From NCBI GenBank assembly GCA_902779185.1, contig CACZAM010000020.1:1-32444 (forward strand): a DNA stretch of 32,444 nucleotides. Reading direction: 5' to 3'. The translations under genes were made by a program, and so were the position numbers. The first letter of the stretch is position 1. Each line of letters opens with the position of its first letter. Below the pieces are notes generated by a model, which had not been told where the DNA came from, made no database searches, and saw nothing but the letters and a program-made list of their open reading frames with translations. The DNA is from an uncultured Eubacteriales bacterium (GTDB lineage Bacteria > Bacillota > Clostridia > Peptostreptococcales > Anaerovoracaceae). Shown piece after piece: positions 27,045 through 32,444 of the stretch.

Positions 27045-28028
27045 ATGAACTGCTTTGACGCGCACAGTGACATCTGGACGGATGTGACCGACAAAAGAAT
27101 GAGGGGAGAAACAAATGTCTTCCATAACCACCATTTTGAAAACATCAGAAGGGGTGGAGTGGAAGGCTCTGTTTTCGTAGTCTGGGTCGATACTCTCGGA
27201 AAAAGCGACATCAGTAAAAGGACCCGCGACATCTTCCGCTGCGTGAAAGATGAGATAACCGAGACAAAAGATTTTCGCATAGTTAAGTCTTACGCTGAAA
27301 TGCAGAAGGCCAGGGAAGATGGCGTCTTTTATGTCTTTATCGGTGTCGAGGGCATGGCATATGCGTCTTATGATCAGTCACTTTCAAAGATTGACGAGTA
27401 TTACGAATTCGGTGCGAGGCATGGCATACTGACCTGGAACGAAAAGAACGGCTTCGGCCACGGCGCAGTTTCAGGCAGTACTGAAGAACTCAGTGGGCTT
27501 GGCAAAAGGGCAGTGCTTCGTATGCTCGAAAAGAAGATGATCGTAGATACTTCTCATCTCAACGAGGCCGGCTTCTGGGACATCGTGCGCATAACGGACG
27601 GCAGACCGTTCATTGCTTCACACTCCAACTGCAGGGCGCTCTGTGACCATCCCCGCAATCTTACGGATGATCAGCTCAGGGCTGTCAGGGACGCAAACGG
27701 CTGTGTTGGCCTCAACACATGGTACGCATTCGTTGATCCTGACCCGGCAAAGTCAGATATTTACAGGCTTGCAGATCACTGTGAGCATATGATAGACATC
27801 ATGGGAATTGACCATGTGGGCTGCGGATTCGATTTTTGCGATTACATTGAATCCGGGGATGATTCTGATGCATCTGATTTCTCTATGGGAGCGGCCGCCG
27901 GAATTGAGGACCCTTCAAAGATACCTGTATTCTTTGAAATTCTCAGGGGCAGGGGGTTGCGTGAGGAAGAGCTGGCAAAGATCGCTTACGGAAACTTCCA
28001 TAGAATTATAAAAGAAGTCATAGGATAG
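27045..28028 (+). CDS. Membrane dipeptidase (renal dipeptidase family, M19)
   Basis: 327 aa. The zinc-binding residues of the M19 family are in place: H7-x-D9 in DAHSDIW, bridging E102 in FIGVEGM, H171 in DTSHLNE and H193 in ASHSNCRALCDHPRN, plus GIDHVGCGFDF near the C-terminus. Members hydrolyse dipeptides, including some with D-amino acids. No signal peptide is seen, so it is cytosolic despite the family name. The ATG directly abuts the TGA of the TPR gene with no gap, so translation is coupled. It is the last gene before the tRNA operon; no terminator is visible after it. Confidence 0.92.
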   Translation: MNCFDAHSDIWTDVTDKRMRGETNVFHNHHFENIRRGGVEGSVFVVWVDTLGKSDISKRTRDIFRCVKDEITETKDFRIVKSYAEMQKAREDGVFYVFIGVEGMAYASYDQSLSKIDEYYEFGARHGILTWNEKNGFGHGAVSGSTEELSGLGKRAVLRMLEKKMIVDTSHLNEAGFWDIVRITDGRPFIASHSNCRALCDHPRNLTDDQLRAVRDANGCVGLNTWYAFVDPDPAKSDIYRLADHCEHMIDIMGIDHVGCGFDFCDYIESGDDSDASDFSMGAAAGIEDPSKIPVFFEILRGRGLREEELAKIAYGNFHRIIKEVIG

Positions 28029-28049
28029 AAAAAAGGTAAAATTTAGGTG

Positions 28050-28078
28050 TTGACACAGCATCATCTCTAAACTATAAT
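28050..28078 (+). promoter_or_regulatory. Perfect consensus promoter of the tRNA operon
   Basis: TTGACA (28050-28055), a 17-base spacer and TATAAT (28073-28078): both hexamers match sigma-A/sigma-70 consensus exactly, with optimal spacing. It lies 27 bases before tRNA-Asn, as expected for a stable RNA promoter. Confidence 0.95.
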
Positions 28079-28105
28079 AATCAAGTCGCATAAAGCGTCA
28101 GATGT

Positions 28106-28180
28106 TCCGAGGTAGCTCAATGGCAGAGCAACCGGCTGTTAACCGGTAGGTTGTGGGTTCGAGCCCCACCCTCGGAGCCA
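28106..28180 (+). tRNA. tRNA-Asn (anticodon GUU)
   Basis: A complete cloverleaf: acceptor TCCGAGG/CCTCGGA, D arm GCTC...GAGC, anticodon stem ACCGG/CCGGT with loop CTGTTAA (anticodon GTT at 28138-28140), T stem GTGGG/CCCAC with TTCGAGC loop, discriminator G and encoded CCA (28178-28180). Confidence 0.97.
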
Positions 28181-28195
28181 TTTTTAACCCAATAT

Positions 28196-28239
28196 GCCGG
28201 AGGATTCTCGTACCGGTTCGAGTCCGGTCTCCGGTACCA
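28196..28239 (+). pseudogene. tRNA remnant of acceptor stem plus T arm only (44 nt)
   Basis: Acceptor GCCGGAG (28196-28202) pairs with CTCCGGT (28229-28235), with one terminal G-T pair. A T arm ACCGG-TTCGAGT-CCGGT (28212-28228) with a consensus T loop, discriminator A and encoded CCA (28237-28239) follow. The D arm and anticodon arm are missing; only a 9-base linker GATTCTCGT joins the 5' acceptor strand to the T arm. The linker could be the 3' side of a long variable arm, which would suggest a former tRNA-Leu or other class II tRNA. It lies between two intact tRNAs and should be transcribed with them. Confidence 0.75.
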
Positions 28240-28264
28240 CCTCCTATATAACATAATATGATGA

Positions 28265-28340
<76 letters not shown>

Positions 28341-28351
28341 GGTGAAAAGGA

Positions 28352-28386
28352 GTCGAAATTCTGAACCACGGAATTCCGACTTTTTT
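28352..28386 (+). terminator. Rho-independent terminator of the tRNA operon
   Basis: An 11-bp stem (28352-28362 with 28370-28380, one A/C mismatch and one T-G pair) around a 7-base loop is followed by six T residues. It begins 12 bases after the CCA of tRNA-fMet. Confidence 0.9.
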
Positions 28387-28389
28387 CTT

Positions 28390-29700
28390 TATTGCAGCAA
28401 TATCAATACTTTAAGACATTTTTAAGAATTGCACCTGATTACAAACATTTGAAATCACTAGTTCAAAGATTTGAATCGGTGCTCTATCCTGAACTGCTTA
28501 TTCCTCCAAATGTGTATAATACTGAGTTTCCTTTTCATCAGGTGATCTGTAATTGTTATAGCTGTGCGGGCGATTCTGATTATAGTGCGCGATATACCTG
28601 GATATTCTGGTTTTGAATTCGCGCTCTGAACGATAGTCATGCCTATACATTTCTTCTTTCTTCAGATTCGAAAAGAAAGACTCACTTACCGCATTATCAA
28701 TGGGTGTACCCGTATGTGAGAATGATTGATCCACAGAGCAGCCTGTAAGAAGTTTGCGGAAAGCCTTGGAAGTATACTGACATCCTTGGTCGCTGTGGAA
28801 TAATAGATTCACTGGATAGCCTCTTTCTTTGAAAGCCATTTTGAAAGAAGAGGTTACTATCTGTGTTGAAGCGTTCGGAGAGATTTTATAGCCGACGACT
28901 TTTCTCGAAAAGAGATCCATAACAACACATACATGATAATAAATACCTTTTATCTTGAATTTGGTAATATCACTGACCCATACAGTATTTGGTGCAGAAA
29001 CATCAAACTGCCTTTTGACTTTGTTCTTCCGATGCAGGGCGTAGTAATCCTTTTTTGAATGAATCCTTATGCTTTCGAGGCCAAGTTCATGCATTATGTT
29101 AAGCACATACCTCTTTGACGTGCGATATCCACGTCTCTTAAGAACAGCCAAAATCTTATCTGAACCATAGCATTGCTCGCTTTCATCAAAAATGAGCTGA
29201 ACTGCTTCGCTGATTTCCTTGTGATGCAGCTCATAACAAGTCGGGTTATGTTTACAGATTATCCTGTTATGATAAGTCCCTTTTGAAATATGAAGAGCCT
29301 CAAGTGTCACATTTATTCCGTAAATTGGGCTTAATCTCACGAATTCACTTAGTTTCTCTTCGAGCGGCGATTCACTGTTACAGTTTGCATCATTGAGAAT
29401 ATCTACGATCTTCCTTAGCTTTTGCATACTGCGTTGTGTATCACAGAACTCTTTATGTATCATTATTTCCATTCCAAGATCTGCTGCATATTCCTTGTAT
29501 TGGTTAGGGGAGATCCAGAAATATGCTGTTGATTCCGAAATACCATATATTTTGCAGATTTCTTTTACCGGTGTTCCGCTCCAGTATGCAGAGCGTATTG
29601 ACAGGATTTGAGAATCGTTAAGCTTTGAGTGCATATTAACCTCCTTGTGATAATATAAAAAACAACAAAGAGCATTATATGATCCATGTCAAGTGAACGA
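28390..29700 (-). mobile_element. IS3-family insertion, ends unresolved
   Basis: A transposase gene fills most of this stretch. I could not find convincing terminal inverted repeats or a target duplication. The 110 bases between the tRNA terminator and the transposase stop (28387-28497) hold no gene or repeat that I can recognise. On the transposase-upstream side, TATAAT and TTGACA occur on the minus strand (about 29674-29693) but only 7 bases apart. In IS3 elements, a -10 near the left end is normally paired with a -35 from the right end in the circular form. The element may be decayed at its ends. Coordinates are approximate. Confidence 0.5.
28498..29634 (-). CDS. IS3-family transposase, single-frame OrfAB-like
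   Basis: 378 aa. The N-terminal helix-turn-helix (about 5-45, KEICKIYGISESTAYFW) is followed by a linker, an HTH_21-like region with CYGSDKILAVLKRRGYRTSKR (split: CYGSDKILAVLKRRG, YRTSKR), and an rve integrase core. The DDE residues are D222 (VSDITKF), D282 (HSDQGCQYTS) and E318 (VSESFFSNLKKEE), with the DD(35)E spacing of IS3. Most IS3 elements need a -1 frameshift to join OrfA and OrfB; here the HTH and the catalytic core are in one continuous frame. AAGGAGG lies 5 nt before the ATG. The gene looks intact and points towards the tRNA operon. Base composition is more AT-rich than the genes to the left. Confidence 0.92.
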   Translation of the reverse strand: MHSKLNDSQILSIRSAYWSGTPVKEICKIYGISESTAYFWISPNQYKEYAADLGMEIMIHKEFCDTQRSMQKLRKIVDILNDANCNSESPLEEKLSEFVRLSPIYGINVTLEALHISKGTYHNRIICKHNPTCYELHHKEISEAVQLIFDESEQCYGSDKILAVLKRRGYRTSKRYVLNIMHELGLESIRIHSKKDYYALHRKNKVKRQFDVSAPNTVWVSDITKFKIKGIYYHVCVVMDLFSRKVVGYKISPNASTQIVTSSFKMAFKERGYPVNLLFHSDQGCQYTSKAFRKLLTGCSVDQSFSHTGTPIDNAVSESFFSNLKKEEMYRHDYRSEREFKTRISRYIAHYNQNRPHSYNNYRSPDEKETQYYTHLEE

Positions 29701-29711
29701 GGAAATATGTT

Positions 29712-32444
29712 ATGAACATCGAAGCATATGATTTGGATTCCCTGCGTAATTTTTCAGACAGAATAGAAGAGTACGAAGAATATGATCCTGATCAAGGTGC
29801 AAGAATATACAGACCTTTTATTACAAGGGAGCATGCGCAGGTTTTCTTCAAAATGTTCTGGGGCCGTCAGGACGTTTATGCAAAACGTGGGCGTAAGGGC
29901 GGATATTTTCCACAATGCGCAAACAGATGGAATAATTACGTCTGCCCTAAGCAGCATGGCGAAAAGCAGTTTTGCGATGAGTGTGCATTCAATCAATGGA
30001 TAAAGCTTACACCTGAAACAGTAATGCAGCATCTGATTGGCTACAAGGAAGATGGTACAGATGTGATTGGAGTGTACCCATTGTTTCCGGATGGTACATG
30101 CAGATTCCTCGTGTTCGATTTTGATAATCATGTTAAAGGTGCTGAAACCAACGACTATGCAAATGAAGATGAAGCCTGGCATGAAGAGGTAGACGCACTC
30201 AGAAAAATGTGCGAAAAGAACGGCGTGATTCCTCTTGTTGAAAGATCAAGATCGGGCCGTGGCGCTCATGTCTGGATTTTCTTTGACAAGCCGATACAGG
30301 CATCGCTTGCAAGGAACTTTGGATTCATGCTTCTGGACAGGGGAGCAGCATCAGTTAATATGAAGTCTTTCCATTATTATGACAGAATGTATCCATCACA
30401 GGACACGGCAAGCAGGCTGGGAAATCTTATTGCTTTACCACTCCAGGGCTGGGCATTGAATAATGGTAATAGTGCCTTTGTCGATAAAAACTGGAATGCA
30501 TATACTGACCAGTGGGATGTTCTTGTGAACCGAACACCAAGGTATTCTCAAAGGGAAATCGAGCAGCTCATGGTCAAATGGTCAAGTGAATTGGATCCTA
30601 ATGTTGTGAATGCCACAGATTTATTCTCTGGCTCAAGACCAAAACCATGGAGAAAGACTGACCGCCTGAATAAGGCTGATGTAATAGGTAAGTTGCATAT
30701 TGTGTTGGCGGATGGTGTTTATGTAGATACCTTGAATCTTATGCCAAGATTGCAGAATCAGATAAGATGCATGACAGCATTCGACAATCCGAAGTATTTT
30801 CAGAATAAACGACTTGGGTTTTCAAATTATTATAATTTCAGCGCATTATATCTCGGAAAAGATATTGATGGATATATTCGTATGCCAAGAGGCGTGCTGG
30901 AAGAATTAGAGACAGCATGTGACAAAGCAGGAATAGACTATGACACTACAGATCATAGGGAAAAAGGAAGACCGATAAGGGTCAAATTCAATGGTTCCCT
31001 TAAACAACAACAGGATCTTGCAGCGCAGAAGATGTTGGAATATGACAACGGAGTGCTCAGTGCGGCAACTGCTTTCGGAAAAACTGTTGTCTGCAGTTAC
31101 CTTATTGCAGAGAGAAAAGTCAATTGTCTGATTCTGCTGCAAAGCAAAGACCTTTTGGATCAATGGGTAGATGAACTCGAAAAATTTCTGGATATAGATG
31201 AGGATCCACCGGAATACACAACCAAAACCGGAAGAGTAAAAAAGAGAGACAGTGTAATTGGAGTTTTGCATGGATCGAAGAAAGCGCTTACGGGAATAGT
31301 AGATGTAGCTATGGTTGGTTCTGTGTATGCAAAGGGCAAATTCAATGAGCTGATCAACTCATATGGTATGGTTATCATGGATGAATGTCATCATGCGGCA
31401 GCAAGTACAGCTGTTGAGGTACTTCAAAAAGTTAATGCAAGGTATGTTTATGGCGTATCAGCAACCATAAAAAGAAGTGACGAACTTGAGAAGATGATTC
31501 CAATGCTGATTGGACCTATGCGTCACAGTTATACATCAAAGCAGAGAGCTGTCTCTCAAGGAATCGGACACTATGTATTTCCACGATTCACGAGGACTAT
31601 TGATACTATTGAAAGCCGTAGCGATATTAATCAGGCGTTTACACTTATAAGCAAAAGTGTTGATCGTAACCAGATGATAATCTCAGATGTTAAGCAGTCA
31701 ATATCTGATGATAAAACACCTGTCATCCTGACAAGATACAAAGAACATGCAAAATATCTCTACGATAACCTGAGAGAAGAGGCTGATCATGTATTTCTTA
31801 TATATGGAGACAATTCAGATAAAGAAAACAGCGCAGCCAGAACTGAAATGAAAGGAATTCCGGATGATGAATCCATGATACTTGTGGCTACCGGGCAGAA
31901 GATCGGTGAAGGCTTTGACATGCCACGACTTGATACACTGATGCTTGCTTCTCCTGTTTCTTCTTCAGGTTCTAACCTTGAACAATATGTAGGGCGGCTA
32001 AATAGAGATTATGAGGGAAAGAAGGAAGTCATAGTCTATGACTATGTCGATTCGCATATACGCTATTTCAATAACATGTATGCCAAGAGACTGAGTATGT
32101 ACAAAAAGATTGGTTTCAGTGTAATCGGATGGGCTGCCCACGAAAAGCAACAGGCAAATGCCATCTATGATGCTGGCAACTATTCTGACACATTTGAACA
32201 GGATATTATAGAAGCAGATAAAGCAATTATAATTTCCAGCCCGGTACTTCTTCGTGAGAAAGTTAGTCGATTCCTGTACATTGTTCGCAGCCGACAGGAA
32301 GCAGGGGTAAAGATTACTGTAATCACGACAAATCCGGATCGAGTGCTTGATAGTTCGTCAGATTATTATATGGAACTCATCAATACAATGACAAACAATG
32401 GCATCAACGTTATTCCGAGGGAAGAGGTGTTGGAACATTTCGCA
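29712..32444 (+). CDS. TOTE-type primase-helicase-PLD protein, cut off by the window end
   Basis: 911 codons open to the window edge. Residues 69-91 form a zinc-knuckle-like C69-x8-C78-x9-C88-x2-C91. An archaeo-eukaryotic primase domain follows (about 30-300) with the metal-binding D136-F-D138, the S-G182-R-G184-A-H186 motif and GNLIALPLQG. An SF2 helicase (about 435-790) has motif I ATAFGKT (K457), motif II DECHH (557-561), VSATIKR, GEGFDMPRLDT and motif VI QYVGRLNR (758-765). From about 815 a phospholipase-D-like domain begins (DAGNYSDTFEQDIIEADKAI, then VKITVITTNP). The window stops inside EHFA, where I expect the first catalytic His motif. The order matches proteins assigned to TOTE conflict systems, which are thought to be defence-related. 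GAGGAAA is 6 nt before the ATG. No good promoter is visible. AT-rich codon use suggests transfer. Confidence 0.9.
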   Translation, partial: MNIEAYDLDSLRNFSDRIEEYEEYDPDQGARIYRPFITREHAQVFFKMFWGRQDVYAKRGRKGGYFPQCANRWNNYVCPKQHGEKQFCDECAFNQWIKLTPETVMQHLIGYKEDGTDVIGVYPLFPDGTCRFLVFDFDNHVKGAETNDYANEDEAWHEEVDALRKMCEKNGVIPLVERSRSGRGAHVWIFFDKPIQASLARNFGFMLLDRGAASVNMKSFHYYDRMYPSQDTASRLGNLIALPLQGWALNNGNSAFVDKNWNAYTDQWDVLVNRTPRYSQREIEQLMVKWSSELDPNVVNATDLFSGSRPKPWRKTDRLNKADVIGKLHIVLADGVYVDTLNLMPRLQNQIRCMTAFDNPKYFQNKRLGFSNYYNFSALYLGKDIDGYIRMPRGVLEELETACDKAGIDYDTTDHREKGRPIRVKFNGSLKQQQDLAAQKMLEYDNGVLSAATAFGKTVVCSYLIAERKVNCLILLQSKDLLDQWVDELEKFLDIDEDPPEYTTKTGRVKKRDSVIGVLHGSKKALTGIVDVAMVGSVYAKGKFNELINSYGMVIMDECHHAAASTAVEVLQKVNARYVYGVSATIKRSDELEKMIPMLIGPMRHSYTSKQRAVSQGIGHYVFPRFTRTIDTIESRSDINQAFTLISKSVDRNQMIISDVKQSISDDKTPVILTRYKEHAKYLYDNLREEADHVFLIYGDNSDKENSAARTEMKGIPDDESMILVATGQKIGEGFDMPRLDTLMLASPVSSSGSNLEQYVGRLNRDYEGKKEVIVYDYVDSHIRYFNNMYAKRLSMYKKIGFSVIGWAAHEKQQANAIYDAGNYSDTFEQDIIEADKAIIISSPVLLREKVSRFLYIVRSRQEAGVKITVITTNPDRVLDSSSDYYMELINTMTNNGINVIPREEVLEHFA

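Follow-up and report, generated by a model that had tools for sequence, protein, structure and literature searches.

A primase-helicase of the TOTE-named family on a tRNA-Met island of an uncultured Eubacteriales bacterium

We analyzed a 32,444-nucleotide stretch of DNA from an uncultured gut bacterium of the Eubacteriales (contig CACZAM010000020.1; hereafter the window), at the end of which lies a gene for a large protein that we call the primase-helicase. An original prediction, made from the letters alone, had described this protein as a zinc knuckle, a primase, a superfamily 2 (SF2) helicase and the start of a PLD-like nuclease-type domain in one polypeptide, a combination that it gave as assigned in the literature to the TOTE conflict systems. 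According to our analysis, the primase-helicase is a further member of a known, named family common in bacteria. The parts of its open reading frame (ORF) are as follows:

29712..32444, + strand: primase-helicase ORF with zinc knuckle, AEP primase-polymerase, SF2 helicase and degenerate PLD-like domain (ORF list, Pfam)
29745..29749, + strand: junction at which 28 in-frame codons (84 bp) of a coiled-coil-like N-terminal stretch are missing (comparison with congener G042 and other relatives)
29832..30566, + strand: AEP-TOTE primase domain, residues 41-285 (PF22548)
29916..29984, + strand: zinc knuckle C69-x8-C78-x9-C88-x2-C91 (alignment of full-length rows)
30117..30125, + strand: primase metal site D136-F-D138 (same alignment)
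30246..30269, + strand: primase motif SRSGRGAH, ending in H186 (same alignment)
31008..32081, + strand: SF2 helicase core (Pfam, motifs, PDB matches)
31077-31085, + strand: helicase GKT, residues 456-458 (motif reading)
31380-31391, + strand: helicase DECH, residues 557-560 (motif reading)
31983-32006, + strand: helicase QYVGRLNR, residues 758-765 (motif reading)
32187..32444, + strand: first part of the PLD-like C-terminal domain, with L907-E-H909 in place of HxK (motif alignment, PLDc_2)

The ORF is open up to the window end, directly behind which stands a run of 20 N. The source contig, of 39,477 bases, continues beyond position 32444, and as scaffolded the frame reaches a stop at contig position 32588, giving 958 codons of which 7 are unreadable; the length of the N run carries no evidence, and G042 has 57 bases at that place. 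Behind the gap the identity to G042 is 99.4%, so we take this sequence to be the expected C-terminus. Extending the contig, a check that the original prediction had proposed, delivered the rest of the PLD-like domain and, behind the stop, a DUF3800 and a MATE gene, of which DUF3800 corresponds to the partner gene expected just beyond the window.

Pfam searches with the window protein matched AEP-TOTE (PF22548) at E 6.1e-74, with 248.9 bits against a curated cut-off of 27, ResIII over residues 434-588 at E 3.5e-16 and DEAD at E 3.8e-9. With the four cysteines, this bears out the predicted joining of zinc knuckle, primase and SF2 helicase in one polypeptide, and all the motifs that had been named (D136-F-D138, SRSGRGAH up to H186, GKT, DECH and QYVGRLNR) are present. 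In the PDB the helicase part matched XPBII and UvsW, and it also resembles XPB/RAD25 and RadD.

Conservation was read from an alignment of 61 rows, the window copy and 60 relatives. It holds full-length unbroken frames only: 64 rows passed the length filter, 3 duplicates were removed, and partial, split and contig-cut copies were left out. D136, D138, H186 and D258 are invariant in 61/61 rows, as are GKT, DECH, Q758, G761, R762 and R765, and the zinc cysteines C69, C78, C88 and C91 are kept in every row. The catalytic residues of PF22548 (D-x-D, s-x-H and a later acidic residue) are all found, as are Walker A, DExH and motif VI of the SF2 helicases, and D258 can be read as a candidate for the AEP "motif III". 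A wider set of 24 diverse proteins, among them copies from plasmids, E. coli, Tn3 and Tn7-like elements, keeps the AEP and helicase residues in 23 or all 24 cases, and the histidine equivalent to H186 in all 24. The exception at the first Asp is the E. coli LSN03 copy (L174 9005-11365), with D changed to A; it is one of seven E. coli copies read, the other six being intact. The available text on the CAPP primase-polymerases MpCAPP and DbCAPP describes the D-x-D as essential (PMC8211822). As far as sequence can tell, both the primase and the helicase site of the window protein are intact, and the possible disruption of the primase site, named in the original prediction as a point against it, was not found.

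The predicted PLD-like nuclease-type domain held as a fold but not as a nuclease. No PLD family was matched at E<=1 by the truncated window protein in Pfam, so that of the profile matches foreseen, AEP-TOTE and ResIII were obtained and PLD was not. PLDc_2 was however matched by 21/21 C-terminal domains of relatives at E<=0.1, the best at 5.7e-15, and by that of the nearest congener at 3.8e-4, below the curated cut-off. In a PDB search with these domains the PLD rows were MitoPLD (3.3e-4) and NucT (0.0066); the best rows, designed PPR proteins (E 3e-14), were set aside as repeat-driven chance because about 50 residues are covered. Judged by these profile matches, the PLD-like C-terminus is real as a fold.

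The D-x6-G-x-x-N spacing is retained in this domain. The nuclease motif of HKD/PLD proteins, H-x-K-x4-D-x6-G-S-x-N, is not: the catalytic HxK pair occurs in 0/61 rows, with a His at the first place in 15/61 and a Lys at the second in 2/61, and the window copy has L907 at the place of the catalytic His and H909 at that of the Lys. The PLD active site is disrupted, an outcome that the original prediction had itself listed as speaking against it. Since the motif is degenerate, a nuclease role is unlikely, and we reject a PLD nuclease; a structural or DNA-binding role appears more likely. The domain is absent from the 20 aligned plasmid and E. coli copies, and Streptomyces has another tail. Of the 26 tree rows that bear it, 25 form one clade (100/100); the 26th (L090) groups, weakly supported and flagged for a long branch, with the L. 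paracasei row. We advise against annotating this PLD-like domain, in the clostridial branch, as a nuclease.

The window copy lacks 28 codons near residue 11, a stretch present in G042 and in other relatives. On the same contig the tRNA-Leu at 28203-28239, between tRNA-Asn and tRNA-Met, is about 45 bp shorter than in congeners, and no other match was found in the 79%-complete source genome. Because the contig has both this short tRNA-Leu and the N run, we suspect that the 84-bp gap is a local assembly shortening; the short tRNA-Leu may be an assembly shortening or a real loss. The gap could also mean that the source-genome copy is no longer functional and is carried as a decaying passenger, as could the dead PLD site and the gene fragments in two congeners (G037 and G017). 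Among genome contigs, 157 stretches matched our search pattern, 142 of them encode a relative and 80 loci were kept; in at least 12 of these 80 the match is split over two frames, which points the same way. We nevertheless hold decay of the window copy to be improbable: it has an open frame and intact catalytic residues, the 28 codons are present in G042, and with the short tRNA-Leu and the N run on the same contig the gap may be an assembly artefact.

The gene lies on an island, whose features are listed here:

28265..28340, + strand: tRNA-Met (ARAGORN)
28330-28340: left junction of the island, the tRNA-Met 3' end, TCCCGCAACCA, with an identical 11-mer at contig 35170-35180
28341..32444, no strand: part of the island within the window (empty-site comparison with congeners, identity to G042, G+C)
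28498..29634, - strand: transposase-like protein of the rve (DDE) type, 378 aa, its gene divergent to that of the primase-helicase (PF00665 E 1.1e-22, PF13683, PF13276)
111 bases past the primase-helicase stop: DUF3800 gene, 238 aa (PF12686 E 1.8e-10)
L103 5634-6992, behind DUF3800, opposite strand: MATE-family efflux gene (PF01554 E 2.4e-44)

In congeners G011 and G013 the tRNA-Met runs directly into the sequence that stands here behind the second repeat. From these empty sites we place the island at contig 28341-35180, 6,840 bp inserted exactly at the tRNA-Met 3' end and flanked by 11-bp direct repeats at both ends; it thus shows the tRNA-end repeats and the empty site in relatives that mark a tRNA-integrated island. 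The predicted mobile location beside a transposase and tRNAs is confirmed by the repeats and the empty sites. The predicted difference in base composition is clear against the DNA before the island (41.8% G+C against 50.6%) but smaller against the 4.3 kb after it (44.1%). The larger genes of the island, four in number (rve, primase-helicase, DUF3800 and MATE), include no tyrosine or serine integrase, and no Cas gene is among the island genes scanned.

Comparison with G042 in 200-base segments gave identities of 0.68-0.82 over 27101 to 28252 and mostly 0.96-1.00 from 28253 to 35132, the alignment ending at 35219. Lower values within the latter stretch were found at 28253-28452 (0.93), at the 84-bp gap, at 29769-29968 (0.90), at 31969-32368 (0.85-0.90) and at the N run. 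At the protein level the dipeptidase beside the island is 79% identical between the two genomes and the MATE protein on it 99%. The island is near-identical to that of G042 and the flank has diverged, which suggests a recent transfer of the island between two species. In G006 it stands at the same tRNA cluster, with the contig ending inside the primase-helicase gene, and G037 has at the tRNA site a C-terminal remnant of the gene and a second tRNA-end repeat. Other short inserts lie between tRNA-end repeats at the tRNA-Met 3' end in G023 (L116 7392-9608) and G017 (L115 2240-2427). From sequence comparison, this tRNA end looks like an insertion hotspot. The island MATE has matches at E<=1e-100 in 6/46 congeners.

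The rve protein has a single match at E<=1e-40 in the source genome, which is incomplete, and its gene is not flanked by any convincing terminal inverted repeats. An ordinary multi-copy insertion sequence (IS) beside the primase-helicase is therefore unlikely. Homologues of rve adjoin the primase-helicase gene in 5 congeners, and three of these have one in-frame TAG.

Clear copies of the primase-helicase gene were found in 6/46 other genomes of the genus (G006, G008, G014, G015, G016 and G042), with fragments in two more (G017 and G037); the remaining matches in the genus cover the helicase part only. The gene is not conserved at this place in all relatives, which the original prediction had named as the mark of a core repair gene, and this distribution speaks against such a gene. 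Within the class, the AEP-TOTE domain occurs in 24/293 genomes, the source genome included. A host might still have acquired the gene for genome maintenance, as a damage-tolerance primase-helicase that incidentally sits on an island. The helicase matches to XPB/RAD25, UvsW and RadD would suit this, as would the effect of the primase-polymerase Ppol of T. thermophilus on genome integrity, given in the accessible part of PMC9751324. We regard this possibility as quite unlikely: 40/46 congeners, some of them incomplete, have no clear copy, the gene is not fixed at a locus, and it is found on plasmids and islands of distant bacteria.

The family reaches far beyond the genus. Among plasmids 211 records match, 87 of them over at least 80% of the protein, all at less than 60% identity. 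The E. coli LSN03 gene is covered over at least 80% in 681/5,426 complete E. coli genomes, and of the E. coli places of any length 1,864/1,873 are chromosomal. No viral contig matched six short patterns, and no phage record covers 80% of the protein. A phage origin was rejected, the only match being an unverified 9.75-kb fragment with residues 1-181 at 57%. This human-gut "Bacteriophage sp." fragment (L102 9122-9751) carries these first 181 residues at its end and may be bacterial DNA. On most of the 40 E. coli rows listed, the NCBI name is "TOTE conflict system archaeo-eukaryotic primase domain-containing protein"; the family is already known and annotated. In the open-access literature, the scope of our search as opposed to subscription papers, we found no experiment on the family under this name. 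Judged from the listing, the 12 of 31 papers shown on AEP with transposon, TniQ, Tn3 or helicase-primase apparently leave the in-operon position described below untreated. In a paper on Tn7-like cargo, the primase/helicase passages found concern OLD nuclease/Gabija and one reference (PMC8649781).

The name TOTE stands for TPR, OB, TBP and Effector in the available text of PMC12458937. The AEP domain is of the kind listed for TOTE effectors (AEP, RNase H and alike), and the original assignment stands for this domain, which lies above the PF22548 cut-off, but not for a full system. TBP (PF00352) was found in 0/13 carrier genomes, some of them incomplete, with four archaea positive as control; a very divergent TBP could escape this search. 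Neighbor genes were scanned for 150 of the 161 genes within two places (226 within three), one per cluster. No TPR, cold-shock or TBP family is among the 25 commonest of the 160 Pfam families in these 150 genes, nor is there a TPR-OB partner among the four island genes scanned. Judged by its domains, the locus has a TOTE-type primase and is not a demonstrated TOTE system; the label fits the domain only.

Within the genus, two genomic sites preserve the order rve - primase-helicase. Site one is the tRNA-Met island (G000, G042 and G006), and site two lies downstream of Wadjet genes (G014, G008 and G016). In G014 the Wadjet genes JetABCD stand upstream of the pair (L106 1223-7991); G008 and G016 (L108, L109) have the same upstream gene set by cluster and length, the profile match being for L106 only. 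Each rve copy at the Wadjet site has one in-frame TAG. DUF3800, which we take to have an RNase H fold, occurs at E<=1e-8 in 3/47 genus genomes (G000, G042 and G014), each time directly downstream of the primase-helicase; the G014 match contains one in-frame TGA. G015 has the primase-helicase but no DUF3800; in three others (G006, G008, G016) the contig breaks off within the primase-helicase gene. Copies from the two sites share 77% identity in the primase-helicase, 46% in DUF3800 and 38% in rve; from the lower values, the partners may evolve faster or have been replaced. Further afield, a type I restriction-modification system lies near the gene in Aeromonas, and a methyltransferase and a helicase in L. 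paracasei.

In other bacteria the gene travels in very different vehicles. In E. albertii (L162 6092-12233) it is the only annotated passenger of a 6.1-kb Tn3-family unit with 38-bp inverted repeats at its ends, where resolvase, primase-helicase and tnpA stand in this order on one strand with gaps of 28 bp and 21 bp. In Sphingobium (L157 996-9265) it closes a Tn7-like transposition operon, behind an rve transposase (a weak match), TniB and TniQ, and overlaps tniQ by 4 bp. TniQ also adjoins it in Bradyrhizobium and S. meliloti, and a site-specific recombinase in Paraburkholderia and Azotobacter. In Dinoroseobacter and Rhizobium CB3090 it is convergent with three tyrosine recombinases, which in R. 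binae begin two genes away. In six clostridial loci, mostly of Lachnospiraceae and several of them near copies of each other, the gene overlaps that of a large serine recombinase over 29-38 bp, provided that the longest frames are the true ones. In all six E. coli chromosomal loci read, a YfjJ/Gp2-like gene lies directly upstream and a DUF3987/YfjI gene beyond; these loci are not independent, L173 and L182 looking like one element. CP4-57 of K-12 carries abpBA and rnlAB at this place. AbpA matches HamA and the Cap4 nuclease, and E. coli YfjK/AbpB was rejected as a homologue, having no AEP domain. Carriers of the Tn7-like and triple-recombinase type fall in one clade of the tree and those of the Tn3 and CP4-57-like type in another (both 100/100). 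Vehicles change within clades and the primase-helicase gene stays.

Such positions would be expected of an accessory of the mobile element itself, a helicase-primase fusion serving to replicate or repair the intermediates of that element. It could restart forks in replicative transposition, fill gaps or copy excised circles, with less dependence on the host PriA and DnaG. The tight coupling with mobility genes keeps this explanation alive: the E. albertii gene between resolvase and tnpA, the overlaps with tniQ and with the serine recombinases, and the E. coli copies behind YfjJ/Gp2-like and YfjI genes. A mobility gene is moreover next to the primase-helicase in 12/20 plasmid regions against 6.8 expected from random order (P 0.007), the regions being hand-chosen from lists of 211, 105 and 328 records and the mobility genes tallied by hand from incomplete annotation tables. 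Without the second copy of one transposon the count is 11/19 against 6.5 (P 0.015), but with three loose IS cases also dropped the excess shrinks to 8/16 against 5.5 (P 0.12). In seven of the 20 regions the directly adjoining annotated places hold no mobility gene (A. towneri, A. lwoffii, the E. coli STEC411 plasmid, Streptomyces, Arcobacter, Aeromonas and Undibacterium), and in an eighth (R. binae) it is two places away. No transposon ends were found in the Sphingobium and Pantoea regions, the vehicles change within clades, and T. thermophilus Ppol is described as dispensable for replication of its element, ICETh2 (available text of PMC7693054). We keep an accessory role as a possible, tentative explanation.

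The explanation that we put first, with about an even chance, is that the primase-helicase is vehicle-independent cargo, carried by mobile elements and active in conflicts over foreign DNA. The XPB/UvsW-like helicase would load on branched or single-stranded invader DNA, such as replication or recombination intermediates, assisted in DNA binding by the zinc knuckle and the dead PLD domain. The primase would then lay primers or second strands at the wrong place, and replication of the invader would be blocked or its ends passed to host or partner nucleases, perhaps DUF3800. The carrier would benefit through the exclusion of competitors, rather than one kind of transposition being driven; we infer this role from the wide differences among the mobile elements that bear related copies. 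We favor such a conflict role because the sites are intact, the vehicles switch, defense neighbors recur and the gene takes the abpAB/rnlAB slot in CP4-57-like elements. Its patchy distribution in the genus and the class also counts in favor, as does DUF3800, directly downstream in 3/3 genus genomes that have it.

Several points weigh against this role. A helper of the element itself would be expected in the same positions. Judging from the loci whose match falls into two frames, decay may affect many copies. The comparable Ppol of Thermus was first reported as defense (PMC7693054) and later tied to addAB mutations (PMC9751324), as far as the accessible parts of these papers go. TBP was not found in any of the 13 carrier genomes, and the PADLOC matches among neighbor genes are uncontrolled.

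We also see AEP-helicase fusions as conceivably a general restart module of bacterial mobile DNA, with any competitor exclusion a by-product, a proposal that draws on the several copies within a few bases of mobility genes and that we hold to be doubtful. Elements of the Tn3-family, Tn7-like, tyrosine-recombinase, serine-recombinase and CP4-57-like kinds would all have taken up the module, which would load the helicase and lay primers independently of the host at intermediates of transposition or integration; this part seems to us equally doubtful.

The survey yields two testable questions, whether the primase-helicase excludes foreign DNA or helps in the replication of its carrier. The locus offers a clean natural setting for them, with a 6.8-kb island, both of its ends, empty sites, a near-identical copy in a congener and one specific partner gene. 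The vehicle range and the in-operon position in Tn3-family and Tn7-like elements are also worth following.

Among known systems, the ICETh2 element of T. thermophilus likewise carries a primase-polymerase with a helicase (Ppol and Hel; PMC7693054, PMC9751324), but there Ppol is encoded alongside a separate helicase, and the likeness is one of description, drawn from the available text. Ppol seemed to guard against environmental DNA (PMC7693054), and every ppol mutant was later found to carry addAB mutations, with a tie to genome stability (PMC9751324). The CAPP proteins (PDB 7nqd, 7nqf, 7p9j; available text of PMC8211822) have the D-x-D AEP in common with the window protein, which matched 7nqd at E 9.8e-17. 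A CAPP-helicase type is described, and the best PADLOC model for the window protein is CRISPR-associated PrimPol (1.4e-56), but on NCBIfam PrimPol_Msp it scores 66.7 against a cut-off of 200. PbeA, an HKD nuclease fused to an SF2 helicase, is similar in its helicase (PADLOC PbeA 6.5e-18) and shares an HKD/PLD-type partner domain, of which the HKD site is degenerate in the window protein; as PbeA is described in the accessible part of PMC10853773, it has no primase. The abpAB genes of K-12 CP4-57 follow yfjI-yfjJ, where related E. coli elements have the primase-helicase instead, but they encode other proteins on the other strand, and AbpB is without an AEP domain. Proteins with the TOTE name at NCBI have the same AEP domain above the curated cut-off of PF22548 and the same order of AEP and SF2 helicase; the clostridial and Treponema copies differ by an additional C-terminus, PLD-like and degenerate, and by a loop behind the D-x-D.

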